Assembly (NCBI GenBank): GCA_034509925.1
Contig: CM067529.1
Location: forward strand, 11,107,001-11,171,000
Direction of reading: 5' to 3'
DNA length: 64,000 nucleotides
Source: Hirudinaria manillensis
Taxonomy: Eukaryota; Annelida; Clitellata; Hirudinida; Hirudinidae
Position numbers and translations under genes: made by a program. Under the pieces are notes generated by a model, which was not told the DNA's origin, did not search any database, and saw only the letters and a program-made list of their open reading frames with translations. Below are positions 1-43,184 of this stretch, piece by piece (position 1 is the first letter of the stretch; every line of letters begins with the position of its first letter).

Positions 1-63
1 GGGACTCGAACCCGCAATCCCCGGCTTAGGAGGCCGATGCCTTATCCATTAGGCCACGGAGGC
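1..63 (-). tRNA. tRNA-Arg(CCT), 3' part cut by window edge
   Basis: Unit 1. The window begins inside the T arm, so the gene's last ten bases are missing. Next copy 331 bp right. Confidence 0.93.
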
Positions 64-321
64 GCGTTACATGGGATGCTCCGATCGTTTTACTCGATTC
101 AGACTTCGCCAACGACTTTTCGCGTCCCGCACGAGCGAAACGTAGAGCTCACCTTTCTTGGCCTCCCTTCAAAAGAACGGCCGTCAATCGGATCGCACGC
201 TTCGAAAAGCGTCGTCAGAAAACCTGCAAAACGCCCTTCATTCAGCCTGGCTTTCTGCGTACGGAGCCGCAATTGCCGAGACGAACGGTCGCTCGCAATT
301 CCTTAAAACTCCAACGCCCTA

Positions 322-394
322 CACCTCCGACGGGACTCGAACCCGCAATCCCCGGCTTAGGAGGCCGATGCCTTATCCATTAGGCCACGGAGGC
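322..394 (-). tRNA. tRNA-Arg(CCT), reference copy
   Basis: Unit 2, used as the reference. The 73 nt fold into a full cloverleaf: 7-bp acceptor stem with a G1-U72 wobble, 4-bp D stem, 5-bp anticodon stem around the loop CTCCTAA (anticodon CCT, reading the Arg codon AGG), 5-base variable loop, 5-bp T stem with TTCGAGT, discriminator G73. There is no intron and no encoded CCA. Box A (TGGCCTAATGG) is at 377-387 and box B (GGTTCGAGTCC) at 333-343. The minus-strand TTTT at 305-308 is the Pol III terminator, after a 13-nt trailer. Next copy 331 bp right. Confidence 0.97.
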
Positions 395-652
395 GCGTTA
401 CATGGGATGCTCCGATCGTTTTACTCGATTCAGACTTCGCCAACGACTTTTCGCGTCCCGCACGAGCGAAACGTAGAGCTCACCTTTCTTGGCCTCCCTT
501 CAAAAGAACGGCCGTCAATCGGATCGCACGCTTCGAAAAGCGTCGTCAGAAAACCTGCAAAACGCCCTTCATTCAGCCTGGCTTTCTGCGTACGGAGCCG
601 CAATTGCCGAGACGAACGGTCGCTCGCAATTCCTTAAAACTCCAACGCCCTA

Positions 653-725
653 CACCTCCGACGGGACTCGAACCCGCAATCCCCGGCTTAGGAGGCCGAT
701 GCCTTATCCATTAGGCCACGGAGGC
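653..725 (-). tRNA. tRNA-Arg(CCT)
   Basis: Unit 3; next copy 331 bp right. Confidence 0.96.
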
Positions 726-983
726 GCGTTACATGGGATGCTCCGATCGTTTTACTCGATTCAGACTTCGCCAACGACTTTTCGCGTCCCGCACGAGCGA
801 AACGTAGAGCTCACCTTTCTTGGCCTCCCTTCAAAAGAACGGCCGTCAATCGGATCGCACGCTTCGAAAAGCGTCGTCAGAAAACCTGCAAAACGCCCTT
901 CATTCAGCCTGGCTTTCTGCGTACGGAGCCGCAATTGCCGAGACGAACGGTCGCTCGCAATTCCTTAAAACTCCAACGCCCTA

Positions 984-1056
984 CACCTCCGACGGGACTC
1001 GAACCCGCAATCCCCGGCTTAGGAGGCCGATGCCTTATCCATTAGGCCACGGAGGC
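984..1056 (-). tRNA. tRNA-Arg(CCT)
   Basis: Unit 4; next copy 341 bp right (first unit with the 10-bp insert). Confidence 0.96.
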
Positions 1057-1324
1057 GCGTTACATGGGATGCTCCGATCGTTTTACTCGATTCAGACTTC
1101 GCCAACGACTTTTCGCGTCCCGCACGAGCGAAACGTAGAGCTCACCTTTCTTGGCCTCCCTTCAAAAGAACGGCCGTCAGTCGGATCGCACGCTTCGAAG
1201 AGCGACGAATAGCGTCGTCAGAAAACCTGCAAAACGCCCTTCATTCAGCCTGGCTTTCTGCGTACGGAGCCGCAATTGCCGAGACGAACGGTCGCTCGCA
1301 ATTCCTTAAAACTCCAACGCCCTA

Positions 1325-1397
1325 CACCTCCGACGGGACTCGAACCCGCAATCCCCGGCTTAGGAGGCCGATGCCTTATCCATTAGGCCACGGAGGC
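1325..1397 (-). tRNA. tRNA-Arg(CCT)
   Basis: Unit 5; first of twelve consecutive 331-bp units. Confidence 0.96.
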
Positions 1398-1655
1398 GCG
1401 TTACATGGGATGCTCCGATCGTTTTACTCGATTCAGACTTCGCCAACGACTTTTCGCGTCCCGCACGAGCGAAACGTAGAGCTCACCTTTCTTGGCCTCC
1501 CTTCAAAAGAACGGCCGTCAATCGGATCGCACGCTTCGAAAAGCGTCGTCAGAAAACCTGCAAAACGCCCTTCATTCAGCCTGGCTTTCTGCGTACGGAG
1601 CCGCAATTGCCGAGACGAACGGTCGCTCGCAATTCCTTAAAACTCCAACGCCCTA

Positions 1656-1728
1656 CACCTCCGACGGGACTCGAACCCGCAATCCCCGGCTTAGGAGGCC
1701 GATGCCTTATCCATTAGGCCACGGAGGC
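1656..1728 (-). tRNA. tRNA-Arg(CCT)
   Basis: Unit 6; next copy 331 bp right. Confidence 0.96.
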
Positions 1729-1986
1729 GCGTTACATGGGATGCTCCGATCGTTTTACTCGATTCAGACTTCGCCAACGACTTTTCGCGTCCCGCACGAG
1801 CGAAACGTAGAGCTCACCTTTCTTGGCCTCCCTTCAAAAGAACGGCCGTCAATCGGATCGCACGCTTCGAAAAGCGTCGTCAGAAAACCTGCAAAACGCC
1901 CTTCATTCAGCCTGGCTTTCTGCGTACGGAGCCGCAATTGCCGAGACGAACGGTCGCTCGCAATTCCTTAAAACTCCAACGCCCTA

Positions 1987-2059
1987 CACCTCCGACGGGA
2001 CTCGAACCCGCAATCCCCGGCTTAGGAGGCCGATGCCTTATCCATTAGGCCACGGAGGC
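1987..2059 (-). tRNA. tRNA-Arg(CCT)
   Basis: Unit 7; next copy 331 bp right. Confidence 0.96.
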
Positions 2060-2317
2060 GCGTTACATGGGATGCTCCGATCGTTTTACTCGATTCAGAC
2101 TTCGCCAACGACTTTTCGCGTCCCGCACGAGCGAAACGTAGAGCTCACCTTTCTTGGCCTCCCTTCAAAAGAACGGCCGTCAATCGGATCGCACGCTTCG
2201 AAAAGCGTCGTCAGAAAACCTGCAAAACGCCCTTCATTCAGCCTGGCTTTCTGCGTACGGAGCCGCAATTGCCGAGACGAACGGTCGCTCGCAATTCCTT
2301 AAAACTCCAACGCCCTA

Positions 2318-2390
2318 CACCTCCGACGGGACTCGAACCCGCAATCCCCGGCTTAGGAGGCCGATGCCTTATCCATTAGGCCACGGAGGC
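2318..2390 (-). tRNA. tRNA-Arg(CCT)
   Basis: Unit 8; next copy 331 bp right. Its spacer is a recombinant: long-type SNPs without the 10-bp insert. Confidence 0.96.
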
Positions 2391-2648
2391 GCGTTACATG
2401 GGATGCTCCGATCGTTTTACTCGATTCAGACTTCGCCAACGACTTTTCGCGTCCCGCACGAGCGAAACGTAGAGCTCACCTTTCTTGGCCTCCCTTCAAA
2501 AGAACGGCCGTCAGTCGGATCGCACGCTTCGAAGAGCGTCGTCAGAAAACCTGCAAAACGCCCTTCATTCAGCCTGGCTTTCTGCGTACGGAGCCGCAAT
2601 TGCCGAGACGAACGGTCGCTCGCAATTCCTTAAAACTCCAACGCCCTA

Positions 2649-2721
2649 CACCTCCGACGGGACTCGAACCCGCAATCCCCGGCTTAGGAGGCCGATGCCT
2701 TATCCATTAGGCCACGGAGGC
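2649..2721 (-). tRNA. tRNA-Arg(CCT)
   Basis: Unit 9; next copy 331 bp right. Confidence 0.96.
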
Positions 2722-2979
2722 GCGTTACATGGGATGCTCCGATCGTTTTACTCGATTCAGACTTCGCCAACGACTTTTCGCGTCCCGCACGAGCGAAACG
2801 TAGAGCTCACCTTTCTTGGCCTCCCTTCAAAAGAACGGCCGTCAATCGGATCGCACGCTTCGAAAAGCGTCGTCAGAAAACCTGCAAAACGCCCTTCATT
2901 CAGCCTGGCTTTCTGCGTACGGAGCCGCAATTGCCGAGACGAACGGTCGCTCGCAATTCCTTAAAACTCCAACGCCCTA

Positions 2980-3052
2980 CACCTCCGACGGGACTCGAAC
3001 CCGCAATCCCCGGCTTAGGAGGCCGATGCCTTATCCATTAGGCCACGGAGGC
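2980..3052 (-). tRNA. tRNA-Arg(CCT)
   Basis: Unit 10; next copy 331 bp right. Confidence 0.96.
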
Positions 3053-3310
3053 GCGTTACATGGGATGCTCCGATCGTTTTACTCGATTCAGACTTCGCCA
3101 ACGACTTTTCGCGTCCCGCACGAGCGAAACGTAGAGCTCACCTTTCTTGGCCTCCCTTCAAAAGAACGGCCGTCAATCGGATCGCACGCTTCGAAAAGCG
3201 TCGTCAGAAAACCTGCAAAACGCCCTTCATTCAGCCTGGCTTTCTGCGTACGGAGCCGCAATTGCCGAGACGAACGGTCGCTCGCAATTCCTTAAAACTC
3301 CAACGCCCTA

Positions 3311-3383
3311 CACCTCCGACGGGACTCGAACCCGCAATCCCCGGCTTAGGAGGCCGATGCCTTATCCATTAGGCCACGGAGGC
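3311..3383 (-). tRNA. tRNA-Arg(CCT)
   Basis: Unit 11; next copy 331 bp right. Confidence 0.96.
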
Positions 3384-3641
3384 GCGTTACATGGGATGCT
3401 CCGATCGTTTTACTCGATTCAGACTTCGCCAACGACTTTTCGCGTCCCGCACGAGCGAAACGTAGAGCTCACCTTTCTTGGCCTCCCTTCAAAAGAACGG
3501 CCGTCAATCGGATCGCACGCTTCGAAAAGCGTCGTCAGAAAACCTGCAAAACGCCCTTCATTCAGCCTGGCTTTCTGCGTACGGAGCCGCAATTGCCGAG
3601 ACGAACGGTCGCTCGCAATTCCTTAAAACTCCAACGCCCTA

Positions 3642-3714
3642 CACCTCCGACGGGACTCGAACCCGCAATCCCCGGCTTAGGAGGCCGATGCCTTATCCAT
3701 TAGGCCACGGAGGC
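3642..3714 (-). tRNA. tRNA-Arg(CCT)
   Basis: Unit 12; next copy 331 bp right. Confidence 0.96.
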
Positions 3715-3972
3715 GCGTTACATGGGATGCTCCGATCGTTTTACTCGATTCAGACTTCGCCAACGACTTTTCGCGTCCCGCACGAGCGAAACGTAGAGCT
3801 CACCTTTCTTGGCCTCCCTTCAAAAGAACGGCCGTCAATCGGATCGCACGCTTCGAAAAGCGTCGTCAGAAAACCTGCAAAACGCCCTTCATTCAGCCTG
3901 GCTTTCTGCGTACGGAGCCGCAATTGCCGAGACGAACGGTCGCTCGCAATTCCTTAAAACTCCAACGCCCTA

Positions 3973-4045
3973 CACCTCCGACGGGACTCGAACCCGCAAT
4001 CCCCGGCTTAGGAGGCCGATGCCTTATCCATTAGGCCACGGAGGC
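3973..4045 (-). tRNA. tRNA-Arg(CCT)
   Basis: Unit 13; next copy 331 bp right. Confidence 0.96.
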
Positions 4046-4303
4046 GCGTTACATGGGATGCTCCGATCGTTTTACTCGATTCAGACTTCGCCAACGACTT
4101 TTCGCGTCCCGCACGAGCGAAACGTAGAGCTCACCTTTCTTGGCCTCCCTTCAAAAGAACGGCCGTCAATCGGATCGCACGCTTCGAAAAGCGTCGTCAG
4201 AAAACCTGCAAAACGCCCTTCATTCAGCCTGGCTTTCTGCGTACGGAGCCGCAATTGCCGAGACGAACGGTCGCTCGCAATTCCTTAAAACTCCAACGCC
4301 CTA

Positions 4304-4376
4304 CACCTCCGACGGGACTCGAACCCGCAATCCCCGGCTTAGGAGGCCGATGCCTTATCCATTAGGCCACGGAGGC
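4304..4376 (-). tRNA. tRNA-Arg(CCT)
   Basis: Unit 14; next copy 331 bp right. Confidence 0.96.
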
Positions 4377-4634
4377 GCGTTACATGGGATGCTCCGATCG
4401 TTTTACTCGATTCAGACTTCGCCAACGACTTTTCGCGTCCCGCACGAGCGAAACGTAGAGCTCACCTTTCTTGGCCTCCCTTCAAAAGAACGGCCGTCAA
4501 TCGGATCGCACGCTTCGAAAAGCGTCGTCAGAAAACCTGCAAAACGCCCTTCATTCAGCCTGGCTTTCTGCGTACGGAGCCGCAATTGCCGAGACGAACG
4601 GTCGCTCGCAATTCCTTAAAACTCCAACGCCCTA

Positions 4635-4707
4635 CACCTCCGACGGGACTCGAACCCGCAATCCCCGGCTTAGGAGGCCGATGCCTTATCCATTAGGCCA
4701 CGGAGGC
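4635..4707 (-). tRNA. tRNA-Arg(CCT)
   Basis: Unit 15; next copy 331 bp right. Confidence 0.96.
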
Positions 4708-4965
4708 GCGTTACATGGGATGCTCCGATCGTTTTACTCGATTCAGACTTCGCCAACGACTTTTCGCGTCCCGCACGAGCGAAACGTAGAGCTCACCTTT
4801 CTTGGCCTCCCTTCAAAAGAACGGCCGTCAATCGGATCGCACGCTTCGAAAAGCGTCGTCAGAAAACCTGCAAAACGCCCTTCATTCAGCCTGGCTTTCT
4901 GCGTACGGAGCCGCAATTGCCGAGACGAACGGTCGCTCGCAATTCCTTAAAACTCCAACGCCCTA

Positions 4966-5038
4966 CACCTCCGACGGGACTCGAACCCGCAATCCCCGGC
5001 TTAGGAGGCCGATGCCTTATCCATTAGGCCACGGAGGC
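4966..5038 (-). tRNA. tRNA-Arg(CCT)
   Basis: Unit 16; next copy 331 bp right. Confidence 0.96.
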
Positions 5039-5296
5039 GCGTTACATGGGATGCTCCGATCGTTTTACTCGATTCAGACTTCGCCAACGACTTTTCGCGT
5101 CCCGCACGAGCGAAACGTAGAGCTCACCTTTCTTGGCCTCCCTTCAAAAGAACGGCCGTCAATCGGATCGCACGCTTCGAAAAGCGTCGTCAGAAAACCT
5201 GCAAAACGCCCTTCATTCAGCCTGGCTTTCTGCGTACGGAGCCGCAATTGCCGAGACGAACGGTCGCTCGCAATTCCTTAAAACTCCAACGCCCTA

Positions 5297-5369
5297 CACC
5301 TCCGACGGGACTCGAACCCGCAATCCCCGGCTTAGGAGGCCGATGCCTTATCCATTAGGCCACGGAGGC
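5297..5369 (-). tRNA. tRNA-Arg(CCT)
   Basis: Unit 17; next copy 332 bp right because of one extra T in the spacer near 5465. Confidence 0.96.
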
Positions 5370-5628
5370 GCGTTACATGGGATGCTCCGATCGTTTTACT
5401 CGATTCAGACTTCGCCAACGACTTTTCGCGTCCCGCACGAGCGAAACGTAGAGCTCACCTTTCTTTGGCCTCCCTTCAAAAGAACGGCCGTCAATCGGAT
5501 CGCACGCTTCGAAAAGCGTCGTCAGAAAACCTGCAAAACGCCCTTCATTCAGCCTGGCTTTCTGCGTACGGAGCCGCAATTGCCGAGACGAACGGTCGCT
5601 CGCAATTCCTTAAAACTCCAACGCCCTA

Positions 5629-5701
5629 CACCTCCGACGGGACTCGAACCCGCAATCCCCGGCTTAGGAGGCCGATGCCTTATCCATTAGGCCACGGAGG
5701 C
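5629..5701 (-). tRNA. tRNA-Arg(CCT)
   Basis: Unit 18; next copy 341 bp right. Start of a block rich in long units (18-26). Confidence 0.96.
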
Positions 5702-5969
5702 GCGTTGCATGGGATGCTCCGATCGTTTTACTCGATTCAGACTTCGCCAACGACTTTTCGCGTCCCGCACGAGCGAAACGTAGAGCTCACCTTTCTTGGC
5801 CTCCCTTCAAAAGAACGGCCGTCAGTCGGATCGCACGCTTCGAAGAGCGACGAATAGCGTCGTCAGAAAACCTGCAAAACGCCCTTCATTCAGCCTGGCT
5901 TTCTGCGTACGGAGCCGCAATTGCCGAGACGAACGGTCGCTCGCAATTCCTTAAAACTCCAACGCCCTA

Positions 5970-6042
5970 CACCTCCGACGGGACTCGAACCCGCAATCCC
6001 CGGCTTAGGAGGCCGATGCCTTATCCATTAGGCCACGGAGGC
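5970..6042 (-). tRNA. tRNA-Arg(CCT)
   Basis: Unit 19; next copy 341 bp right. Confidence 0.96.
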
Positions 6043-6310
6043 GCGTTACATGGGATGCTCCGATCGTTTTACTCGATTCAGACTTCGCCAACGACTTTTC
6101 GCGTCCCGCACGAGCGAAACGTAGAGCTCACCTTTCTTGGCCTCCCTTCAAAAGAACGGCCGTCAGTCGGATCGCACGCTTCGAAGAGCGACGAATAGCG
6201 TCGTCAGAAAACCTGCAAAACGCCCTTCATTCAGCCTGGCTTTCTGCGTACGGAGCCGCAATTGCCGAGACGAACGGTCGCTCGCAATTCCTTAAAACTC
6301 CAACGCCCTA

Positions 6311-6383
6311 CACCTCCGACGGGACTCGAACCCGCAATCCCCGGCTTAGGAGGCCGATGCCTTATCCATTAGGCCACGGAGGC
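6311..6383 (-). tRNA. tRNA-Arg(CCT)
   Basis: Unit 20; next copy 341 bp right. Confidence 0.96.
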
Positions 6384-6651
6384 GCGTTACATGGGATGCT
6401 CCGATCGTTTTACTCGATTCAGACTTCGCCAACGACTTTTCGCGTCCCGCACGAGCGAAACGTAGAGCTCACCTTTCTTGGCCTCCCTTCAAAAGAACGG
6501 CCGTCAGTCGGATCGCACGCTTCGAAGAGCGACGAATAGCGTCGTCAGAAAACCTGCAAAACGCCCTTCATTCAGCCTGGCTTTCTGCGTACGGAGCCGC
6601 AATTGCCGAGACGAACGGTCGCTCGCAATTCCTTAAAACTCCAACGCCCTA

Positions 6652-6724
6652 CACCTCCGACGGGACTCGAACCCGCAATCCCCGGCTTAGGAGGCCGATG
6701 CCTTATCCATTAGGCCACGGAGGC
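6652..6724 (-). tRNA. tRNA-Arg(CCT)
   Basis: Unit 21; next copy 331 bp right. Confidence 0.96.
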
Positions 6725-6982
6725 GCGTTACATGGGATGCTCCGATCGTTTTACTCGATTCAGACTTCGCCAACGACTTTTCGCGTCCCGCACGAGCGAA
6801 ACGTAGAGCTCACCTTTCTTGGCCTCCCTTCAAAAGAACGGCCGTCAATCGGATCGCACGCTTCGAAAAGCGTCGTCAGAAAACCTGCAAAACGCCCTTC
6901 ATTCAGCCTGGCTTTCTGCGTACGGAGCCGCAATTGCCGAGACGAACGGTCGCTCGCAATTCCTTAAAACTCCAACGCCCTA

Positions 6983-7055
6983 CACCTCCGACGGGACTCG
7001 AACCCGCAATCCCCGGCTTAGGAGGCCGATGCCTTATCCATTAGGCCACGGAGGC
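6983..7055 (-). tRNA. tRNA-Arg(CCT)
   Basis: Unit 22; next copy 341 bp right; 5' flank carries the GCTTCG variant. Confidence 0.96.
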
Positions 7056-7323
7056 GCGTTGCATGGGATGCTTCGATCGTTTTACTCGATTCAGACTTCG
7101 CCAACGACTTTTCGCGTCCCGCACGAGCGAAACGTAGAGCTCACCTTTCTTGGCCTCCCTTCAAAAGAACGGCCGTCAGTCGGATCGCACGCTTCGAAGA
7201 GCGACGAATAGCGTCGTCAGAAAACCTGCAAAACGCCCTTCATTCAGCCTGGCTTTCTGCGTACGGAGCCGCAATTGCCGAGACGAACGGTCGCTCGCAA
7301 TTCCTTAAAACTCCAACGCCCTA

Positions 7324-7396
7324 CACCTCCGACGGGACTCGAACCCGCAATCCCCGGCTTAGGAGGCCGATGCCTTATCCATTAGGCCACGGAGGC
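7324..7396 (-). tRNA. tRNA-Arg(CCT)
   Basis: Unit 23; next copy 341 bp right. Confidence 0.96.
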
Positions 7397-7664
7397 GCGT
7401 TACATGGGATGCTCCGATCGTTTTACTCGATTCAGACTTCGCCAACGACTTTTCGCGTCCCGCACGAGCGAAACGTAGAGCTCACCTTTCTTGGCCTCCC
7501 TTCAAAAGAACGGCCGTCAGTCGGATCGCACGCTTCGAAGAGCGACGAATAGCGTCGTCAGAAAACCTGCAAAACGCCCTTCATTCAGCCTGGCTTTCTG
7601 CGTACGGAGCCGCAATTGCCGAGACGAACGGTCGCTCGCAATTCCTTAAAACTCCAACGCCCTA

Positions 7665-7737
7665 CACCTCCGACGGGACTCGAACCCGCAATCCCCGGCT
7701 TAGGAGGCCGATGCCTTATCCATTAGGCCACGGAGGC
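7665..7737 (-). tRNA. tRNA-Arg(CCT)
   Basis: Unit 24; next copy 341 bp right. Confidence 0.96.
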
Positions 7738-8005
7738 GCGTTACATGGGATGCTCCGATCGTTTTACTCGATTCAGACTTCGCCAACGACTTTTCGCGTC
7801 CCGCACGAGCGAAACGTAGAGCTCACCTTTCTTGGCCTCCCTTCAAAAGAACGGCCGTCAGTCGGATCGCACGCTTCGAAGAGCGACGAATAGCGTCGTC
7901 AGAAAACCTGCAAAACGCCCTTCATTCAGCCTGGCTTTCTGCGTACGGAGCCGCAATTGCCGAGACGAACGGTCGCTCGCAATTCCTTAAAACTCCAACG
8001 CCCTA

Positions 8006-8078
8006 CACCTCCGACGGGACTCGAACCCGCAATCCCCGGCTTAGGAGGCCGATGCCTTATCCATTAGGCCACGGAGGC
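8006..8078 (-). tRNA. tRNA-Arg(CCT)
   Basis: Unit 25; next copy 341 bp right. Confidence 0.96.
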
Positions 8079-8346
8079 GCGTTACATGGGATGCTCCGAT
8101 CGTTTTACTCGATTCAGACTTCGCCAACGACTTTTCGCGTCCCGCACGAGCGAAACGTAGAGCTCACCTTTCTTGGCCTCCCTTCAAAAGAACGGCCGTC
8201 AGTCGGATCGCACGCTTCGAAGAGCGACGAATAGCGTCGTCAGAAAACCTGCAAAACGCCCTTCATTCAGCCTGGCTTTCTGCGTACGGAGCCGCAATTG
8301 CCGAGACGAACGGTCGCTCGCAATTCCTTAAAACTCCAACGCCCTA

Positions 8347-8419
8347 CACCTCCGACGGGACTCGAACCCGCAATCCCCGGCTTAGGAGGCCGATGCCTTA
8401 TCCATTAGGCCACGGAGGC
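8347..8419 (-). tRNA. tRNA-Arg(CCT)
   Basis: Unit 26; next copy 341 bp right. Confidence 0.96.
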
Positions 8420-8687
8420 GCGTTACATGGGATGCTCCGATCGTTTTACTCGATTCAGACTTCGCCAACGACTTTTCGCGTCCCGCACGAGCGAAACGTA
8501 GAGCTCACCTTTCTTGGCCTCCCTTCAAAAGAACGGCCGTCAGTCGGATCGCACGCTTCGAAGAGCGACGAATAGCGTCGTCAGAAAACCTGCAAAACGC
8601 CCTTCATTCAGCCTGGCTTTCTGCGTACGGAGCCGCAATTGCCGAGACGAACGGTCGCTCGCAATTCCTTAAAACTCCAACGCCCTA

Positions 8688-8760
8688 CACCTCCGACGGG
8701 ACTCGAACCCGCAATCCCCGGCTTAGGAGGCCGATGCCTTATCCATTAGGCCACGGAGGC
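8688..8760 (-). tRNA. tRNA-Arg(CCT)
   Basis: Unit 27; next copy 331 bp right. Confidence 0.96.
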
Positions 8761-9018
8761 GCGTTACATGGGATGCTCCGATCGTTTTACTCGATTCAGA
8801 CTTCGCCAACGACTTTTCGCGTCCCGCACGAGCGAAACGTAGAGCTCACCTTTCTTGGCCTCCCTTCAAAAGAACGGCCGTCAATCGGATCGCACGCTTC
8901 GAAAAGCGTCGTCAGAAAACCTGCAAAACGCCCTTCATTCAGCCTGGCTTTCTGCGTACGGAGCCGCAATTGCCGAGACGAACGGTCGCTCGCAATTCCT
9001 TAAAACTCCAACGCCCTA

Positions 9019-9091
9019 CACCTCCGACGGGACTCGAACCCGCAATCCCCGGCTTAGGAGGCCGATGCCTTATCCATTAGGCCACGGAGGC
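9019..9091 (-). tRNA. tRNA-Arg(CCT)
   Basis: Unit 28; next copy 331 bp right. Confidence 0.96.
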
Positions 9092-9349
9092 GCGTTGCAT
9101 GGGATGCTCCGATCGTTTTACTCGATTCAGACTTCGCCAACGACTTTTCGCGTCCCGCACGAGCGAAACGTAGAGCTCACCTTTCTTGGCCTCCCTTCAA
9201 AAGAACGGCCGTCAATCGGATCGCACGCTTCGAAAAGCGTCGTCAGAAAACCTGCAAAACGCCCTTCATTCAGCCTGGCTTTCTGCGTACGGAGCCGCAA
9301 TTGCCGAGACGAACGGTCGCTCGCAATTCCTTAAAACTCCAACGCCCTA

Positions 9350-9422
9350 CACCTCCGACGGGACTCGAACCCGCAATCCCCGGCTTAGGAGGCCGATGCC
9401 TTATCCATTAGGCCACGGAGGC
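9350..9422 (-). tRNA. tRNA-Arg(CCT)
   Basis: Unit 29; next copy 341 bp right. Confidence 0.96.
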
Positions 9423-9690
9423 GCGTTACATGGGATGCTCCGATCGTTTTACTCGATTCAGACTTCGCCAACGACTTTTCGCGTCCCGCACGAGCGAAAC
9501 GTAGAGCTCACCTTTCTTGGCCTCCCTTCAAAAGAACGGCCGTCAGTCGGATCGCACGCTTCGAAGAGCGACGAATAGCGTCGTCAGAAAACCTGCAAAA
9601 CGCCCTTCATTCAGCCTGGCTTTCTGCGTACGGAGCCGCAATTGCCGAGACGAACGGTCGCTCGCAATTCCTTAAAACTCCAACGCCCTA

Positions 9691-11384: not shown

Positions 11385-11458
11385 CACCTCCGACGGGACT
11401 CGAACCCGCAATCCCAGGGCTAGGAAGTTCGATGCCTTATCCATTAGGCCACGGAGGC
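11385..11458 (-). pseudogene. tRNA-Arg-derived copy with scrambled anticodon arm
   Basis: Unit 35. Acceptor, D and T arms match the consensus, but the segment from the anticodon stem to the variable loop is replaced (plus strand ATCCCAGGGCTAGGAAGTTC) and is 1 nt longer, giving 74 nt. The normal 5-bp anticodon stem cannot form around a 7-base loop. Boxes A and B are intact, so it may still be transcribed, but it is probably not a functional tRNA-Arg. Next copy 331 bp right. Confidence 0.85.
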
Positions 11459-33750: not shown

Positions 33751-33823
33751 CACCTCCGACGGGACTCGAACCCGCAATCCCCGGCTTAGGAGGCCGATGC
33801 CTTATCCATTAGGCCACGGAGGC
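33751..33823 (-). tRNA. tRNA-Arg(CCT)
   Basis: Unit 102; next copy 331 bp right. Confidence 0.96.
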
Positions 33824-34081
33824 GCGTTACATGGGATGCTCCGATCGTTTTACTCGATTCAGACTTCGCCAACGACTTTTCGCGTCCCGCACGAGCGAAA
33901 CGTAGAGCTCACCTTTCTTGGCCTCCCTTCAAAAGAACGGCCGTCAATCGGATCGCACGCTTCGAAAAGCGTCGTCAGAAAACCTGCAAAACGCCCTTCA
34001 TTCAGCCTGGCTTTCTGCGTACGGAGCCGCAATTGCCGAGACGAACGGTCGCTCGCAATTCCTTAAAACTCCAACGCCCTA

Positions 34082-34154
34082 CACCTCCGACGGGACTCGA
34101 ACCCGCAATCGCCGGCTTAGGAGGCCGATGCCTTATCCATTAGGCCACGGAGGC
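34082..34154 (-). tRNA. tRNA-Arg(CCT), G44C variant
   Basis: Unit 103; next copy 330 bp right. Same variable-loop change as unit 45, about 19 kb away. Confidence 0.95.
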
Positions 34155-34411
34155 GCGTTGCATGGGATGCTCCGATCGTTTTACTCGATTCAGACTTCGC
34201 CAACGACTTTTCGCGTCCGCACGAGCGAAACGTAGAGCTCACCTTTCTTGGCCTCCCTTCAAAAGAACGGCCGTCAATCGGATCGCACGCTTCGAAAAGC
34301 GTCGTCAGAAAACCTGCAAAACGCCCTTCATTCAGCCTGGCTTTCTGCGTACGGAGCCGCAATTGCCGAGACGAACGGTCGCTCGCAATTCCTTAAAACT
34401 CCAACGCCCTA

Positions 34412-34484
34412 CACCTCCGACGGGACTCGAACCCGCAATCCCCGGCTTAGGAGGCCGATGCCTTATCCATTAGGCCACGGAGGC
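34412..34484 (-). tRNA. tRNA-Arg(CCT)
   Basis: Unit 104; next copy 330 bp right. Confidence 0.96.
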
Positions 34485-34741
34485 GCGTTGCATGGGATGC
34501 TCCGATCGTTTTACTCGATTCAGACTTCGCCAACGACTTTTCGCGTCCGCACGAGCGAAACGTAGAGCTCACCTTTCTTGGCCTCCCTTCAAAAGAACGG
34601 CCGTCAATCGGATCGCACGCTTCGAAAAGCGTCGTCAGAAAACCTGCAAAACGCCCTTCATTCAGCCTGGCTTTCTGCGTACGGAGCCGCAATTGCCGAG
34701 ACGAACGGTCGCTCGCAATTCCTTAAAACTCCAACGCCCTA

Positions 34742-34814
34742 CACCTCCGACGGGACTCGAACCCGCAATCCCCGGCTTAGGAGGCCGATGCCTTATCCAT
34801 TAGGCCACGGAGGC
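34742..34814 (-). tRNA. tRNA-Arg(CCT)
   Basis: Unit 105; next copy 330 bp right. Confidence 0.96.
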
Positions 34815-35071
34815 GCGTTACATGGGATGCTCCGATCGTTTTACTCGATTCAGACTTCGCCAACGACTTTTCGCGTCCGCACGAGCGAAACGTAGAGCTC
34901 ACCTTTCTTGGCCTCCCTTCAAAAGAACGGCCGTCAATCGGATCGCACGCTTCGAAAAGCGTCGTCAGAAAACCTGCAAAACGCCCTTCATTCAGCCTGG
35001 CTTTCTGCGTACGGAGCCGCAATTGCCGAGACGAACGGTCGCTCGCAATTCCTTAAAACTCCAACGCCCTA

Positions 35072-35144
35072 CACCTCCGACGGGACTCGAACCCGCAATC
35101 CCCGGCTTAGGAGGCCGATGCCTTATCCATTAGGCCACGGAGGC
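35072..35144 (-). tRNA. tRNA-Arg(CCT)
   Basis: Unit 106; next copy 341 bp right, from +10, -1 and a private +1 A near 35192. Confidence 0.96.
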
Positions 35145-35412
35145 GCGTTGCATGGGATGCTCCGATCGTTTTACTCGATTCAGACTTCGCCAAACGACTT
35201 TTCGCGTCCGCACGAGCGAAACGTAGAGCTCACCTTTCTTGGCCTCCCTTCAAAAGAACGGCCGTCAGTCGGATCGCACGCTTCGAAGAGCGACGAATAG
35301 CGTCGTCAGAAAACCTGCAAAACGCCCTTCATTCAGCCTGGCTTTCTGCGTACGGAGCCGCAATTGCCGAGACGAACGGTCGCTCGCAATTCCTTAAAAC
35401 TCCAACGCCCTA

Positions 35413-35485
35413 CACCTCCGACGGGACTCGAACCCGCAATCCCCGGCTTAGGAGGCCGATGCCTTATCCATTAGGCCACGGAGGC
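35413..35485 (-). tRNA. tRNA-Arg(CCT)
   Basis: Unit 107; next copy 331 bp right. Confidence 0.96.
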
Positions 35486-35743
35486 GCGTTACATGGGATG
35501 CTCCGATCGTTTTACTCGATTCAGACTTCGCCAACGACTTTTCGCGTCCCGCACGAGCGAAACGTAGAGCTCACCTTTCTTGGCCTCCCTTCAAAAGAAC
35601 GGCCGTCAATCGGATCGCACGCTTCGAAAAGCGTCGTCAGAAAACCTGCAAAACGCCCTTCATTCAGCCTGGCTTTCTGCGTACGGAGCCGCAATTGCCG
35701 AGACGAACGGTCGCTCGCAATTCCTTAAAACTCCAACGCCCTA

Positions 35744-35816
35744 CACCTCCGACGGGACTCGAACCCGCAATCCCCGGCTTAGGAGGCCGATGCCTTATCC
35801 ATTAGGCCACGGAGGC
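35744..35816 (-). tRNA. tRNA-Arg(CCT)
   Basis: Unit 108; next copy 341 bp right. Confidence 0.96.
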
Positions 35817-36084
35817 GCGTTACATGGGATGCTCCGATCGTTTTACTCGATTCAGACTTCGCCAACGACTTTTCGCGTCCCGCACGAGCGAAACGTAGAG
35901 CTCACCTTTCTTGGCCTCCCTTCAAAAGAACGGCCGTCAGTCGGATCGCACGCTTCGAAGAGCGACGAATAGCGTCGTCAGAAAACCTGCAAAACGCCCT
36001 TCATTCAGCCTGGCTTTCTGCGTACGGAGCCGCAATTGCCGAGACGAACGGTCGCTCGCAATTCCTTAAAACTCCAACGCCCTA

Positions 36085-36157
36085 CACCTCCGACGGGACT
36101 CGAACCCGCAATCCCCGGCTTAGGAGGCCGATGCCTTATCCATTAGGCCACGGAGGC
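36085..36157 (-). tRNA. tRNA-Arg(CCT)
   Basis: Unit 109; next copy 331 bp right. Confidence 0.96.
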
Positions 36158-36415
36158 GCGTTGCATGGGATGCTCCGATCGTTTTACTCGATTCAGACTT
36201 CGCCAACGACTTTTCGCGTCCCGCACGAGCGAAACGTAGAGCTCACCTTTCTTGGCCTCCCTTCAAAAGAACGGCCGTCAATCGGATCGCACGCTTCGAA
36301 AAGCGTCGTCAGAAAACCTGCAAAACGCCCTTCATTCAGCCTGGCTTTCTGCGTACGGAGCCGCAATTGCCGAGACGAACGGTCGCTCGCAATTCCTTAA
36401 AACTCCAACGCCCTA

Positions 36416-36488
36416 CACCTCCGACGGGACTCGAACCCGCAATCCCCGGCTTAGGAGGCCGATGCCTTATCCATTAGGCCACGGAGGC
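36416..36488 (-). tRNA. tRNA-Arg(CCT)
   Basis: Unit 110; next copy 331 bp right. Confidence 0.96.
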
Positions 36489-36746
36489 GCGTTGCATGGG
36501 ATGCTCCGATCGTTTTACTCGATTCAGACTTCGCCAACGACTTTTCGCGTCCCGCACGAGCGAAACGTAGAGCTCACCTTTCTTGGCCTCCCTTCAAAAG
36601 AACGGCCGTCAATCGGATCGCACGCTTCGAAAAGCGTCGTCAGAAAACCTGCAAAACGCCCTTCATTCAGCCTGGCTTTCTGCGTACGGAGCCGCAATTG
36701 CCGAGACGAACGGTCGCTCGCAATTCCTTAAAACTCCAACGCCCTA

Positions 36747-36819
36747 CACCTCCGACGGGACTCGAACCCGCAATCCCCGGCTTAGGAGGCCGATGCCTTA
36801 TCCATTAGGCCACGGAGGC
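36747..36819 (-). tRNA. tRNA-Arg(CCT)
   Basis: Unit 111; next copy 341 bp right. Confidence 0.96.
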
Positions 36820-37087
36820 GCGTTACATGGGATGCTCCGATCGTTTTACTCGATTCAGACTTCGCCAACGACTTTTCGCGTCCCGCACGAGCGAAACGTA
36901 GAGCTCACCTTTCTTGGCCTCCCTTCAAAAGAACGGCCGTCAGTCGGATCGCACGCTTCGAAGAGCGACGAATAGCGTCGTCAGAAAACCTGCAAAACGC
37001 CCTTCATTCAGCCTGGCTTTCTGCGTACGGAGCCGCAATTGCCGAGACGAACGGTCGCTCGCAATTCCTTAAAACTCCAACGCCCTA

Positions 37088-37160
37088 CACCTCCGACGGG
37101 ACTCGAACCCGCAATCCCCGGCTTAGGAGGCCGATGCCTTATCCATTAGGCCACGGAGGC
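37088..37160 (-). tRNA. tRNA-Arg(CCT)
   Basis: Unit 112; next copy 330 bp right. Confidence 0.96.
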
Positions 37161-37417
37161 GCGTTGCATGGGATGCTCCGATCGTTTTACTCGATTCAGA
37201 CTTCGCCAACGACTTTTCGCGTCCGCACGAGCGAAACGTAGAGCTCACCTTTCTTGGCCTCCCTTCAAAAGAACGGCCGTCAATCGGATCGCACGCTTCG
37301 AAAAGCGTCGTCAGAAAACCTGCAAAACGCCCTTCATTCAGCCTGGCTTTCTGCGTACGGAGCCGCAATTGCCGAGACGAACGGTCGCTCGCAATTCCTT
37401 AAAACTCCAACGCCCTA

Positions 37418-37490
37418 CACCTCCGACGGGACTCGAACCCGCAATCCCCGGCTTAGGAGGCCGATGCCTTATCCATTAGGCCACGGAGGC
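37418..37490 (-). tRNA. tRNA-Arg(CCT)
   Basis: Unit 113; next copy 330 bp right. Confidence 0.96.
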
Positions 37491-37747
37491 GCGTTGCATG
37501 GGATGCTCCGATCGTTTTACTCGATTCAGACTTCGCCAACGACTTTTCGCGTCCGCACGAGCGAAACGTAGAGCTCACCTTTCTTGGCCTCCCTTCAAAA
37601 GAACGGCCGTCAATCGGATCGCACGCTTCGAAAAGCGTCGTCAGAAAACCTGCAAAACGCCCTTCATTCAGCCTGGCTTTCTGCGTACGGAGCCGCAATT
37701 GCCGAGACGAACGGTCGCTCGCAATTCCTTAAAACTCCAACGCCCTA

Positions 37748-37820
37748 CACCTCCGACGGGACTCGAACCCGCAATCCCCGGCTTAGGAGGCCGATGCCTT
37801 ATCCATTAGGCCACGGAGGC
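37748..37820 (-). tRNA. tRNA-Arg(CCT)
   Basis: Unit 114; next copy 341 bp right; GCTTCG variant in the 5' flank. Confidence 0.96.
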
Positions 37821-38088
37821 GCGTTGCATGGGATGCTTCGATCGTTTTACTCGATTCAGACTTCGCCAACGACTTTTCGCGTCCCGCACGAGCGAAACGT
37901 AGAGCTCACCTTTCTTGGCCTCCCTTCAAAAGAACGGCCGTCAGTCGGATCGCACGCTTCGAAGAGCGACGAATAGCGTCGTCAGAAAACCTGCAAAACG
38001 CCCTTCATTCAGCCTGGCTTTCTGCGTACGGAGCCGCAATTGCCGAGACGAACGGTCGCTCGCAATTCCTTAAAACTCCAACGCCCTA

Positions 38089-38161
38089 CACCTCCGACGG
38101 GACTCGAACCCGCAATCCCCGGCTTAGGAGGCCGATGCCTTATCCATTAGGCCACGGAGGC
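38089..38161 (-). tRNA. tRNA-Arg(CCT)
   Basis: Unit 115; next copy 341 bp right. Confidence 0.96.
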
Positions 38162-38429
38162 GCGTTACATGGGATGCTCCGATCGTTTTACTCGATTCAG
38201 ACTTCGCCAACGACTTTTCGCGTCCCGCACGAGCGAAACGTAGAGCTCACCTTTCTTGGCCTCCCTTCAAAAGAACGGCCGTCAGTCGGATCGCACGCTT
38301 CGAAGAGCGACGAATAGCGTCGTCAGAAAACCTGCAAAACGCCCTTCATTCAGCCTGGCTTTCTGCGTACGGAGCCGCAATTGCCGAGACGAACGGTCGC
38401 TCGCAATTCCTTAAAACTCCAACGCCCTA

Positions 38430-38502
38430 CACCTCCGACGGGACTCGAACCCGCAATCCCCGGCTTAGGAGGCCGATGCCTTATCCATTAGGCCACGGAG
38501 GC
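38430..38502 (-). tRNA. tRNA-Arg(CCT)
   Basis: Unit 116; next copy 330 bp right. Confidence 0.96.
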
Positions 38503-38759
38503 GCGTTACATGGGATGCTCCGATCGTTTTACTCGATTCAGACTTCGCCAACGACTTTTCGCGTCCGCACGAGCGAAACGTAGAGCTCACCTTTCTTGGC
38601 CTCCCTTCAAAAGAACGGCCGTCAATCGGATCGCACGCTTCGAAAAGCGTCGTCAGAAAACCTGCAAAACGCCCTTCATTCAGCCTGGCTTTCTGCGTAC
38701 GGAGCCGCAATTGCCGAGACGAACGGTCGCTCGCAATTCCTTAAAACTCCAACGCCCTA

Positions 38760-38832
38760 CACCTCCGACGGGACTCGAACCCGCAATCCCCGGCTTAGGA
38801 GGCCGATGCCTTATCCATTAGGCCACGGAGGC
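38760..38832 (-). tRNA. tRNA-Arg(CCT)
   Basis: Unit 117; next copy 341 bp right. Private spacer changes: GTTTAACTC near 38857 and GCTTGGAAG near 38969. Confidence 0.96.
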
Positions 38833-39100
38833 GCGTTACATGGGATGCTCCGATCGTTTAACTCGATTCAGACTTCGCCAACGACTTTTCGCGTCCCGCA
38901 CGAGCGAAACGTAGAGCTCACCTTTCTTGGCCTCCCTTCAAAAGAACGGCCGTCAATCGGATCGCACGCTTGGAAGAGCGACGAATAGCGTCGTCAGAAA
39001 ACCTGCAAAACGCCCTTCATTCAGCCTGGCTTTCTGCGTACGGAGCCGCAATTGCCGAGACGAACGGTCGCTCGCAATTCCTTAAAACTCCAACGCCCTA

Positions 39101-39173
39101 CACCTCCGACGGGACTCGAACCCGCAATCCCCGGCTTAGGAGGCCGATGCCTTATCCATTAGGCCACGGAGGC
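39101..39173 (-). tRNA. tRNA-Arg(CCT)
   Basis: Unit 118; next copy 331 bp right. Private spacer changes near 39214 and 39270. Confidence 0.96.
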
Positions 39174-39431
39174 GCGTTACATGGGATGCTCCGATCGTTT
39201 TACTCGATTCAGACGTCGCCAACGACTTTTCGCGTCCCGCACGAGCGAAACGTAGAGCTCACCTTTCTTTGCCTCCCTTCAAAAGAACGGCCGTCAATCG
39301 GATCGCACGCTTCGAAAAGCGTCGTCAGAAAACCTGCAAAACGCCCTTCATTCAGCCTGGCTTTCTGCGTACGGAGCCGCAATTGCCGAGACGAACGGTC
39401 GCTCGCAATTCCTTAAAACTCCAACGCCCTA

Positions 39432-39504
39432 CACCTCCGACGGGACTCGAACCCGCAATCCCCGGCTTAGGAGGCCGATGCCTTATCCATTAGGTCACGG
39501 AGGC
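39432..39504 (-). tRNA. tRNA-Arg(CCT), G10A variant
   Basis: Unit 119; next copy 341 bp right. Same D-stem and box A change as unit 32. Confidence 0.9.
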
Positions 39505-39772
39505 GCGTTGCATGGGATGCTTCGATCGTTTTACTCGATTCAGACTTCGCCAACGACTTTTCGCGTCCCGCACGAGCGAAACGTAGAGCTCACCTTTCTT
39601 GGCCTCCCTTCAAAAGAACGGCCGTCAGTCGGATCGCACGCTTCGAAGAGCGACGAATAGCGTCGTCAGAAAACCTGCAAAACGCCCTTCATTCAGCCTG
39701 GCTTTCTGCGTACGGAGCCGCAATTGCCGAGACGAACGGTCGCTCGCAATTCCTTAAAACTCCAACGCCCTA

Positions 39773-39845
39773 CACCTCCGACGGGACTCGAACCCGCAAT
39801 CCCCGGCTTAGGAGGCCGATGCCTTATCCATTAGGCCACGGAGGC
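39773..39845 (-). tRNA. tRNA-Arg(CCT)
   Basis: Unit 120; next copy 340 bp right. Confidence 0.96.
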
Positions 39846-40112
39846 GCGTTGCATGGGATGCTCCGATCGTTTTACTCGATTCAGACTTCGCCAACGACTT
39901 TTCGCGTCCGCACGAGCGAAACGTAGAGCTCACCTTTCTTGGCCTCCCTTCAAAAGAACGGCCGTCAGTCGGATCGCACGCTTCGAAGAGCGACGAATAG
40001 CGTCGTCAGAAAACCTGCAAAACGCCCTTCATTCAGCCTGGCTTTCTGCGTACGGAGCCGCAATTGCCGAAACGAACGGTCGCTCGCAATTCCTTAAAAC
40101 TCCAACGCCCTA

Positions 40113-40185
40113 CACCTCCGACGGGACTCGAACCCGCAATCCCCGCCTTAGGAGGCCGATGCCTTATCCATTAGGCCACGGAGGC
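40113..40185 (-). tRNA. tRNA-Arg(CCT), anticodon-stem mismatch
   Basis: Unit 121; next copy 330 bp right. C40 is G, giving a G30-G40 mismatch in the anticodon stem; the anticodon itself is intact. Confidence 0.88.
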
Positions 40186-40442
40186 GCGTTGCATGGGATG
40201 CTCCGATCGTTTTACTCGATTCAGACTTCGCCAACGACTTTTCGCGTCCGCACGAGCGAAACGTAGAGCTCACCTTTCTTGGCATCCCTTCAAAAGAACG
40301 GCCGTCAATCGGATCGCACGCTTCGAAAAGCGTCGTCAGAAAACCTGCAAAACGCCCTTCATTCAGCCTGGCTTTCTGCGTACGGAGCCGCAATTGCCGA
40401 GACGAACGGTCGCTCGCAATTCCTTAAAACTCCAACGCCCTA

Positions 40443-40515
40443 CACCTCCGACGGGACTCGAACCCGCAATCCCCGGCTTAGGAGGCCGATGCCTTATCCA
40501 TTAGGCCACGGAGGC
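40443..40515 (-). tRNA. tRNA-Arg(CCT)
   Basis: Unit 122; next copy 331 bp right. Confidence 0.96.
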
Positions 40516-40773
40516 GCGTTACATGGGATGCTCCGATCGTTTTACTCGATTCAGACTTCGCCAACGACTTTTCGCGTCCCGCACGAGCGAAACGTAGAGC
40601 TCACCTTTCTTGGCCTCCCTTCAAAAGAACGGCCGTCAATCGGATCGCACGCTTCGAAAAGCGTCGTCAGAAAACCTGCAAAACGCCCTTCATTCAGCCT
40701 GGCTTTCTGCGTACGGAGCCGCAATTGCCGAGACGAACGGTCGCTCGCAATTCCTTAAAACTCCAACGCCCTA

Positions 40774-40846
40774 CACCTCCGACGGGACTCGAACCCGCAA
40801 TCCCCGGCTTAGGAGGCCGATGCCTTATCCATTAGGCCACGGAGGC
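40774..40846 (-). tRNA. tRNA-Arg(CCT)
   Basis: Unit 123; next copy 341 bp right; shares the GCTTGGAAG spacer change with unit 117. Confidence 0.96.
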
Positions 40847-41114
40847 GCGTTACATGGGATGCTCCGATCGTTTTACTCGATTCAGACTTCGCCAACGACT
40901 TTTCGCGTCCCGCACGAGCGAAACGTAGAGCTCACCTTTCTTGGCCTCCCTTCAAAAGAACGGCCGTCAATCGGATCGCACGCTTGGAAGAGCGACGAAT
41001 AGCGTCGTCAGAAAACCTGCAAAACGCCCTTCATTCAGCCTGGCTTTCTGCGTACGGAGCCGCAATTGCCGAGACGAACGGTCGCTCGCAATTCCTTAAA
41101 ACTCCAACGCCCTA

Positions 41115-41187
41115 CACCTCCGACGGGACTCGAACCCGCAATCCCCGGCTTAGGAGGCCGATGCCTTATCCATTAGGCCACGGAGGC
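41115..41187 (-). tRNA. tRNA-Arg(CCT)
   Basis: Unit 124; next copy 331 bp right. Confidence 0.96.
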
Positions 41188-41445
41188 GCGTTACATGGGA
41201 TGCTCCGATCGTTTTACTCGATTCAGACTTCGCCAACGACTTTTCGCGTCCCGCACGAGCGAAACGTAGAGCTCACCTTTCTTGGCCTCCCTTCAAAAGA
41301 ACGGCCGTCAATCGGATCGCACGCTTCGAAAAGCGTCGTCAGAAAACCTGCAAAACGCCCTTCATTCAGCCTGGCTTTCTGCGTACGGAGCCGCAATTGC
41401 CGAGACGAACGGTCGCTCGCAATTCCTTAAAACTCCAACGCCCTA

Positions 41446-41518
41446 CACCTCCGACGGGACTCGAACCCGCAATCCCCGGCTTAGGAGGCCGATGCCTTAT
41501 CCATTAGGCCACGGAGGC
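41446..41518 (-). tRNA. tRNA-Arg(CCT)
   Basis: Unit 125; next copy 340 bp right; GCTTCG flank as in unit 119. Confidence 0.96.
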
Positions 41519-41785
41519 GCGTTGCATGGGATGCTTCGATCGTTTTACTCGATTCAGACTTCGCCAACGACTTTTCGCGTCCGCACGAGCGAAACGTAGA
41601 GCTCACCTTTCTTGGCCTCCCTTCAAAAGAACGGCCGTCAGTCGGATCGCACGCTTCGAAGAGCGACGAATAGCGTCGTCAGAAAACCTGCAAAACGCCC
41701 TTCATTCAGCCTGGCTTTCTGCGTACGGAGCCGCAATTGCCGAGACGAACGGTCGCTCGCAATTCCTTAAAACTCCAACGCCCTA

Positions 41786-41858
41786 CACCTCCGACGGGAC
41801 TCGAACCCGCAATCCCCGGCTTAGGAGGCCGATGCCTTATCCATTAGGCCACGGAGGC
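41786..41858 (-). tRNA. tRNA-Arg(CCT)
   Basis: Unit 126; next copy 341 bp right. Private GTACGGCAC change in the spacer near 41919. Confidence 0.96.
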
Positions 41859-42126
41859 GCGTTACATGGGATGCTCCGATCGTTTTACTCGATTCAGACT
41901 TCGCCAACGACTTTTCGCGTACGGCACGAGCGAAACGTAGAGCTCACCTTTCTTGGCCTCCCTTCAAAAGAACGGCCGTCAGTCGGATCGCACGCTTCGA
42001 AGAGCGACGAATAGCGTCGTCAGAAAACCTGCAAAACGCCCTTCATTCAGCCTGGCTTTCTGCGTACGGAGCCGCAATTGCCGAGACGAACGGTCGCTCG
42101 CAATTCCTTAAAACTCCAACGCCCTA

Positions 42127-42199
42127 CACCTACGACGGGACTCGAACCCGCAATCCCCGGCTTAGGAGGCCGATGCCATATCCATTAGGTCACGGAGGC
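42127..42199 (-). pseudogene. tRNA-Arg(CCT) copy with three stem-breaking changes
   Basis: Unit 127. Three body changes: G10A (D stem and box A), A22U (opposes U13, a second D-stem loss) and G68U (opposes C5 in the acceptor stem). Together they make a stable cloverleaf unlikely. Anticodon and box B are intact. Next copy 331 bp right. Confidence 0.75.
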
Positions 42200-42457
42200 G
42201 CGTTACATGGGATGCTCCGATCGTTTTACTCGATTCAGACTTCGCCAACGACTTTTCGCGTCCCGCACGAGCGAAACGTAGAGCTCACCTTTCTTGGCCT
42301 CCCTTCATAAGAACGGCCGTCAATCGGATCGCACGCTTCGAAAAGCGTCGTCAGAAAACCTGCAAAACGCCCTTCATTCAGCCTGGCTTTCTGCGTACGG
42401 AGCCGCAATTGCCGAGACGAACGGTCGCTCGCAATTCCTTAAAACTCCAACGCCCTA

Positions 42458-42530
42458 CACCTCCGACGGGACTCGAACCCGCAATCCCCGGCTTAGGAGG
42501 CCGATGCCTTATCCATTAGGCCACGGAGGC
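42458..42530 (-). tRNA. tRNA-Arg(CCT)
   Basis: Unit 128; next copy 331 bp right. Confidence 0.96.
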
Positions 42531-42788
42531 GCGTTACATGGGATGCTCCGATCGTTTTACTCGATTCAGACTTCGCCAACGACTTTTCGCGTCCCGCACG
42601 AGCGAAACGTAGAGCTCACCTTTCTTGGCCTCCCTTCAAAAGAACGGCCGTCAATCGGATCGCACGCTTCGAAAAGCGTCGTCAGAAAACCTGCAAAACG
42701 CCCTTCATTCAGCCTGGCTTTCTGCGTACGGAGCCGCAATTGCCGAGACGAACGGTCGCTCGCAATTCCTTAAAACTCCAACGCCCTA

Positions 42789-42861
42789 CACCTCCGACGG
42801 GACTCGAACCCGCAATCCCCGGCTTAGGAGGCCGATGCCTTATCCATTAGGCCACTGAGGC
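42789..42861 (-). tRNA. tRNA-Arg(CCT), terminal copy with C6A
   Basis: Unit 129, the last copy. C6 is A, opposing G67 in the acceptor stem. Its 5' spacer shows several changes from about 42950 and ends near 43018, where similarity to the array stops. Confidence 0.85.
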
Positions 42862-43184
42862 GCGTTACATGGGATGCTCCGATCGTTTTACTCGATTCAG
42901 ACTTCGCCAACGACTTTTCGCGTCCCGCACGAGCGAAACGTAGAGCTCACTTTTCTTCGTCTCCGTTCAAAAGAAACGCCGTCAGTCGGATCGCACGCTT
43001 CGAAAAGCGACGAATAGCTTAATGCTTATTAAGAGGGACTTAAGTAAAACACAATAACTTCGTCCCCAATCCTCACATTTTTGTTTACGTTTGTTATAGT
43101 ATTTCGGGTGCACTTGAATGGAACTCATTACACGTTACGCCAAGAGACGCACGAAAATTCACCTAAACATTGCATTGCATTTGC

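Follow-up and report, generated by a model that had tools for sequence, protein, structure and literature searches.

The 3.18-kb transfer RNA (tRNA) repeat of Xenopus is present in more than 100 tandem copies and carries several tRNA types per unit. In Entamoeba, the array units comprise 1 to 5 tRNA types, and one of these arrays, [R-TCT], is a single-isoacceptor Arg array; its authors reported that codon use and gene number were not linked (PMC2652664). Clusters in which the tRNA genes are not identical, numbering as many as 110, have also been described (PMC12652284). The subject of the present analysis is a 64-kb window of the genome of the leech Hirudinaria manillensis (C4:11107001-11171000), which opens inside a tandem array of tRNA-Arg(CCT) genes and leaves the left part of this array outside. 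We regard the locus as probably a working RNA polymerase III (Pol III) multigene array of about 176 cytosolic tRNA-Arg(CCT) genes, homogenized by exchange and supplying the tRNA that reads AGG. An earlier reading of the window, made from its letters alone and referred to here as the original prediction, had held that known tRNA arrays mix isoacceptors, a statement that the Entamoeba [R-TCT] array contradicts.

The extent of the array was established by similarity to its repeat unit, which placed it at C4:11090892-11150009, corresponding to approximately 59 kb. When ten upstream 10-kb stretches were joined to the window, 176 tRNA-Arg(CCT) genes were found at C4:11090972-11149861, together with a 177th copy ruined in the anticodon arm; this copy number is that of the assembly, and a chance model is unnecessary for 176 near-identical copies. 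Within the window, ARAGORN identified 127 tRNA-Arg(CCT) genes from position 321 to 42862, every one of them on the minus strand, and Rfam returned 132 tRNA matches above the gathering thresholds, of which 3 were tRNA-Ala and 129 belonged to the array, the latter including one copy cut by the left end of the window and the degenerate copy at 11385-11458. Moreover, Tandem Repeats Finder (TRF) reported a single 331-bp array at 1-43009 with 98% matches. The original prediction of at least 129 tandem genes of one isoacceptor, in one orientation, over at least 43 kb was borne out. Some 2.5 Mb separate the array from the closer end of C4, a contig of 13,643,184 bases in a genome of 148.43 Mb and 23 contigs, and the array therefore does not lie at a chromosome end, provided that C4 is complete.

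The arrayed gene is 73 nt long, has neither an intron nor an encoded CCA, and was identical in 166 of the 176 copies, with nine others differing at one site and one at three. The 175 spacings among these genes measured 331 bp (94), 341 bp (52), 330 bp (21) and 340 bp (5), the remaining ones being 332, 337 and 672 bp, one each, and the 672-bp spacing is due to the degenerate copy. The 331- and 341-bp unit types, which differ by 10 bp in the spacer, were intermingled along the array. The A-box consensus was present in 173 copies, the B-box consensus in 174, and a TTTT stretch at most 25 nt away in 175; all three signals occurred together in 170 of the 176 copies, and the CCT anticodon loop was kept in every one. 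The Pol III signals announced by the original prediction were therefore recovered, and its assertion that each copy carried box A, box B and TTTT proved nearly right. The coordinates of a typical intact gene and its signals are presented in Table 1. The minimum-energy fold of this gene contained the acceptor, D and anticodon stems; the fold z-score of the single-strand tRNA was unremarkable (-1.25) and was not used as evidence. Concerning a second RNA gene in the spacer, only tRNA reached the cut-off in the Rfam analysis of positions 42300-64000, which cover about two units. A match to RF04354, antisense to the tRNA gene, scored 28.4 bits against a cut-off of 65.7 and was taken as chance.

Table 1. 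Features located in the 64-kb window, in window positions
Feature	Position	Strand	Support
Window part of the tRNA-Arg(CCT) tandem array	1..43009	-	ARAGORN, TRF, Rfam, unit similarity
Degenerate copy, scrambled anticodon arm	11385..11458	-	Rfam 41.6 bits
Typical intact tRNA-Arg(CCT) gene, 73 nt	42458..42530	-	Rfam RF00005 64.8 bits
TTTT Pol III terminator of this gene	42441..42444	-	TTTT at most 25 nt away
B box (GGTTCGAGTCC) of this gene	42469..42479	-	B-box consensus
Anticodon CCT of this gene	42495..42497	-	Anticodon loop, kept in 176/176
A box (TGGCCTAATGG) of this gene	42513..42523	-	A-box consensus
Diverged array edge beside unique DNA	42863..43009	-	Sequence; rare unit types at both edges
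Three tRNA-Ala(CGC) genes	49969..50531	-	ARAGORN, Rfam

The head-to-tail units were near-identical, spacer included, and the 175 intervals comprised 41 distinct unit sequences. The longest exact repeat in the array had 2,647 bp, equivalent to eight units. Unit sequences found only once were concentrated at the edges, where they accounted for 17 of 24 units, versus 14 of the 151 inner ones, when 12 units per end were considered (p 2.9e-10), and the excess was also observed with 10, 15 and 20 units per end (p 5.0e-7, 5.7e-8 and 2.7e-7, respectively). Unequal exchange in tandem repeats leaves unique units crowded at the edges; therefore, this distribution is the pattern expected of such a process. 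Runs tests applied to the order of the unit types did not detect a block structure (z 0.59 and 1.40; z 1.40 for the 331/341 types).

The possibility that the copy number was inflated, or the array collapsed, during assembly was weighed against the same variation. The genome was obtained from HiFi and Hi-C data, with 23.80 Gb of HiFi reads averaging 18.73 kb, and comprises 13 chromosomes, the longest with 14.76 Mb and the shortest with 8.30 Mb, together with 9 small scaffolds and the mitochondrial genome (15,581 bp), with a quality value (QV) of 33.53; the main text of this publication does not use the word tRNA and states that small RNA repeats were not found (PMC10671345). The array, with 59 kb, exceeds the mean read length, and the QV predicts about 26 base errors over this extension, so that some of the 18 single-copy variant sites observed in the alignment of 174 units may be errors. 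Nevertheless, exact repeats never extended beyond eight units, well below the mean read, the distinct unit sequences were numerous, the edges differed from the interior, and the letter N was absent from the array sequence. Gross misassembly of the array is unlikely in view of this evidence, and we give an artefactual inflation or collapse very little credence.

The distribution of Arg(CCT) genes across the genome was assessed with the pattern CCTAA-13N-GGTTCGANTCC, which would miss genes with another variable-loop length or B box. This pattern had 174 matches genome-wide, all of them reverse and the first 100 located on C4, and the stretch of the array alone contained 174, and therefore every Arg(CCT) gene of this pattern resides in the array. 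A tRNA-derived short interspersed element, whose copies would be dispersed and carry a body unrelated to tRNA, was ruled out, as all 174 matches were found in one array, without dispersal. Similarly, the matches of a search with the unit DNA were limited, outside the array, to parts of tRNA genes, although this search skips very common words and the array itself did not appear among its matches. A bacterial or organellar origin was also ruled out by the separate mitochondrial contig, the leech COX1 and the matching leech assembly. The mitochondrial COX1 showed 97% identity to Poecilobdella javanica and 96% to H. manillensis, two leeches.

The array is not singular in its genome, since at least three further tRNA arrays were found. 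A Gly(TCC) array with a 293-bp unit extends on C1 from 3.362 Mb (3362108) past position 3450114, ending between 3.450 and 3.480 Mb, and the corresponding pattern had 195 matches genome-wide, 100 of them placed. Irregular spacing and fewer pattern matches were noticed in this array around 3379-3393 kb of C1. Another array, at C1:5585510-5629335, combines Thr(AGT) and Leu(CAG) genes in opposite orientations within a 585-bp unit and comprises about 75 units, as estimated by length and spacing. In the case of Arg(TCT), an intron-less pattern had no matches, and a gapped pattern found an array on C10:3311695-3324216, which accounted for 56 of 64 matches (control 12), with spacings mostly of 224 or 230 bp. 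In one 701-bp piece of this array, Rfam recognized two tRNAs (57.2 bits) whose anticodon loop carries a long insert, and ARAGORN read the gene as Pyl(CTA) when unspliced and as Arg(TCT) once 18 nt were removed. The 18-nt insert is placed after the anticodon, and the first unit of the C10 array appears truncated. Outside their tRNA genes, the Arg(CCT), Gly and Thr/Leu units shared only a 10-bp piece (blastn), and therefore these arrays, having unrelated spacers, arose separately.

The arginine tRNAs that read CGN codons amounted to approximately 11 genes where seen. Their pattern had 36 matches (control 4), corresponding to 3 Arg(CCG) on C5, 5 Arg(ACG) on C13 and 28 others, these 28 yielding no tRNA call, and at least 3 Arg(TCG) genes, with a different B box, were found by similarity. 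Arg(ACG), Arg(CCG) and Ala(CGC) genes occurred in small groups where seen. On the genomic scale, the B-box pattern GGTTCRANYCC had 3863 matches versus 434 for the reversed control; since 20 dispersed matches from the beginning of C1 were examined and not one was called as a tRNA, this control underestimates chance matches and 3863 cannot be taken as a gene number. For comparison, the published counts are 429 tRNA genes in the draft of Hirudo medicinalis (PMC7303139) and 1308 tRNAs in Dinobdella ferox (PMC10494388), and the figure for Bonellia is 146 in PMC13299783, whose available portion does not mention arrays.

In a working multigene array, transcription by Pol III would run from the internal promoter of a copy up to its own terminator, and the copies, of which a fraction would be active, would feed the Arg(CCU) tRNA pool of the cell, reading AGG. 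Their uniformity would be maintained by exchange inside the block, through either unequal crossing-over or gene conversion, as in ribosomal DNA and 5S arrays. The locus is one of a set of isoacceptor-specific tRNA arrays in the H. manillensis genome, and high dosage would be the reason for its persistence.

The codon demand was evaluated in 20 of 30 matches to proteasome exons, from each of which the longest run without a stop codon was taken. The 53 Arg codons of these pieces comprised AGA 21, AGG 19, CGT 7, CGC 3, CGA 3 and CGG 0, and hence AGG and AGA, both with arrayed decoders, represented 40 of the 53. In the large exon of an ATRX-like gene located to the right of the array, 13 of the 38 Arg codons were AGG and 5 were AGA. 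These counts support AGG as a common codon; the original prediction had claimed this for both protein genes of the window, of which the ATRX-like one was counted. The high-dosage role that it had also proposed fared less well: the direction agrees with the AGG share of the proteasome pieces, but not the size. In fact, codon demand agrees with dosage at best in direction, in one sample, and does not account for the size of the array.

Several observations weigh against a dosage-driven multigene array. Taken together, the genes decoding AGA and AGG (AGR) number 232 versus about 11 for CGN, whereas the respective codons stand at 40 to 13 in the proteasome sample, which is itself small (1,130 codons), and in the ATRX-like exon it is the CGN codons that form the majority, with 20 against 18 AGR. 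Moreover, the Arg(UCU) tRNA, encoded by the Arg(TCT) genes, could read AGG by wobble, and therefore the array, even as the sole Arg(CCT) locus, may be dispensable. Nor was purifying selection seen at the level of individual copies: in the alignment of 174 units, with the 672-bp unit left out, the gene had 8 variable sites among 73 and the spacer 25 among 258 (p 0.82). The mismatch density per site and unit was lower in the gene than in the spacer (0.00094 vs 0.00425), but this difference stems from a small number of common variants in the spacer and does not indicate constraint. The units are too alike for selection to be judged.

Both the copy number above codon demand and the lack of any sign that the gene is more constrained than the spacer would suit a satellite, neutral or selfish, in which a tRNA gene is included by chance. 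Unequal exchange would have amplified it, with a few copies providing all the tRNA and the rest as silent passengers. This passive satellite is the main rival explanation, and we consider it unlikely for three reasons. Plainly ruined copies were limited to 1 of 177, with 10 more carrying one or three substitutions; the spacers of three arrays, each with other tRNA genes, are unrelated; and both Arg tRNAs with arrays decode the commoner Arg codons of the proteasome sample.

Two genes were found to the right of the array, namely one in which Pfam detected a Fip1 motif (PF05182, E 1.3e-16) and the ATRX-like gene. The latter was recognized by a 61-residue piece whose best PDB match was ATRX (E 2.9e-26), Pfam giving PHD alone, below the cut-off. 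Minisatellites occur between the ATRX-like exons, at 57636-58108 (18 bp, 26 copies) and 58153-58301 (21 bp, 7 copies), and a broken coding-like stretch, possibly a transposon remnant, lies at 48870-49700, with the FIP1 gene on one side and the tRNA-Ala genes on the other. To the left of the array, five tRNA-Ala(CGC) genes were found on the plus strand at C4:11084921-11087125, inverted relative to the three right-hand ones, and the flanking tRNA-Ala(CGC) regions shared a 255-bp inverted match of 90%; these genes perhaps mark an old inverted duplication around the array. Elsewhere in the assembly, a full-length COX1 on C9:3026446-3027786, scoring equal to the copy of the mitochondrial contig C23, represents either a nuclear copy of recent origin or an error in scaffolding, and a COX1 fragment was observed at C3:11667942.

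The array spacer is GC-rich (0.539) in AT-rich surroundings (0.336-0.352), and its CpG observed/expected ratio was 1.67, versus 0.93 and 1.21 in the flanks. This ratio gives no sign of long methylation, and the heterochromatic block suggested by the original prediction finds, as a methylated block, no support in composition, although this is weak evidence. The same composition, together with the human 1q23.3 tRNA variable number tandem repeat (VNTR), which has been proposed as a boundary element (PMC4041453), could speak for a boundary function in chromatin, or for an insulator block based on Pol III/TFIIIC, with tRNA output as a secondary matter. Against it stands the near absence of common sequence among the Arg, Gly and Thr/Leu units outside their tRNA genes, and such a role appears highly improbable as the explanation of the array.

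In a broader scenario, a bilaterian animal would have moved many isoacceptors, one by one, into dedicated homogenized arrays with copy numbers from tens to about 200, and the whole supply of each tRNA would then be set by a single locus or a few. Among the Arg tRNAs, arrays exist for the AGR decoders and not for the CGN decoders, so that arrays may have formed after a shift of Arg codon use to AGA/AGG, or may have driven this shift. We advance this scenario tentatively, as a possibility with somewhat less than even support. The concentration at one locus of all Arg(CCT) genes found in the assembly makes the question of tRNA-array dosage directly testable, aided by array-length differences between individuals, by variant copies that mark single units and by the presence of one mappable locus. 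The array also suggests that fragmented assemblies may undercount tRNA genes.

A literature search of titles and abstract openings did not show tRNA arrays to have been described from leeches or other annelids. With the present locus, an annelid joins the few animals that have large tRNA arrays of a single isoacceptor. The closest resemblance is with Entamoeba, which also presents tandem units with nearly uniform copies, including its single-isoacceptor Arg array. However, Entamoeba is a protist in which the arrays exceed 10% of the genome (PMC2652664), whereas the leech is a bilaterian animal, and E. histolytica and E. dispar have short tandem repeats between genes, while TRF listed no shorter repeat inside the 331-bp leech unit. 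Among animals, Hydractinia has tRNA arrays, but it is a cnidarian in which other RNA genes are arrayed too (PMC11067881). Nematostella and teleosts resemble the leech in having clusters of fifty and more tRNA genes, although those of Nematostella and zebrafish are mostly mixed pairs (PMC2888827). The human 1q23.3 VNTR is likewise a GC-rich tandem tRNA repeat, but its unit has 7.3 kb and several tRNA genes, with 9-43 units per allele (PMC4041453). Plants share the single-isoacceptor tandem organization, such as 27 tRNA-Pro genes in Arabidopsis and 28 tRNA-Ile genes in maize, with approximately six times fewer copies than the leech array (PMC12652284). The leech array is not a new kind of structure; it represents an uncommon but previously described gene organization, of which it is a large, clean and striking case with a single isoacceptor.

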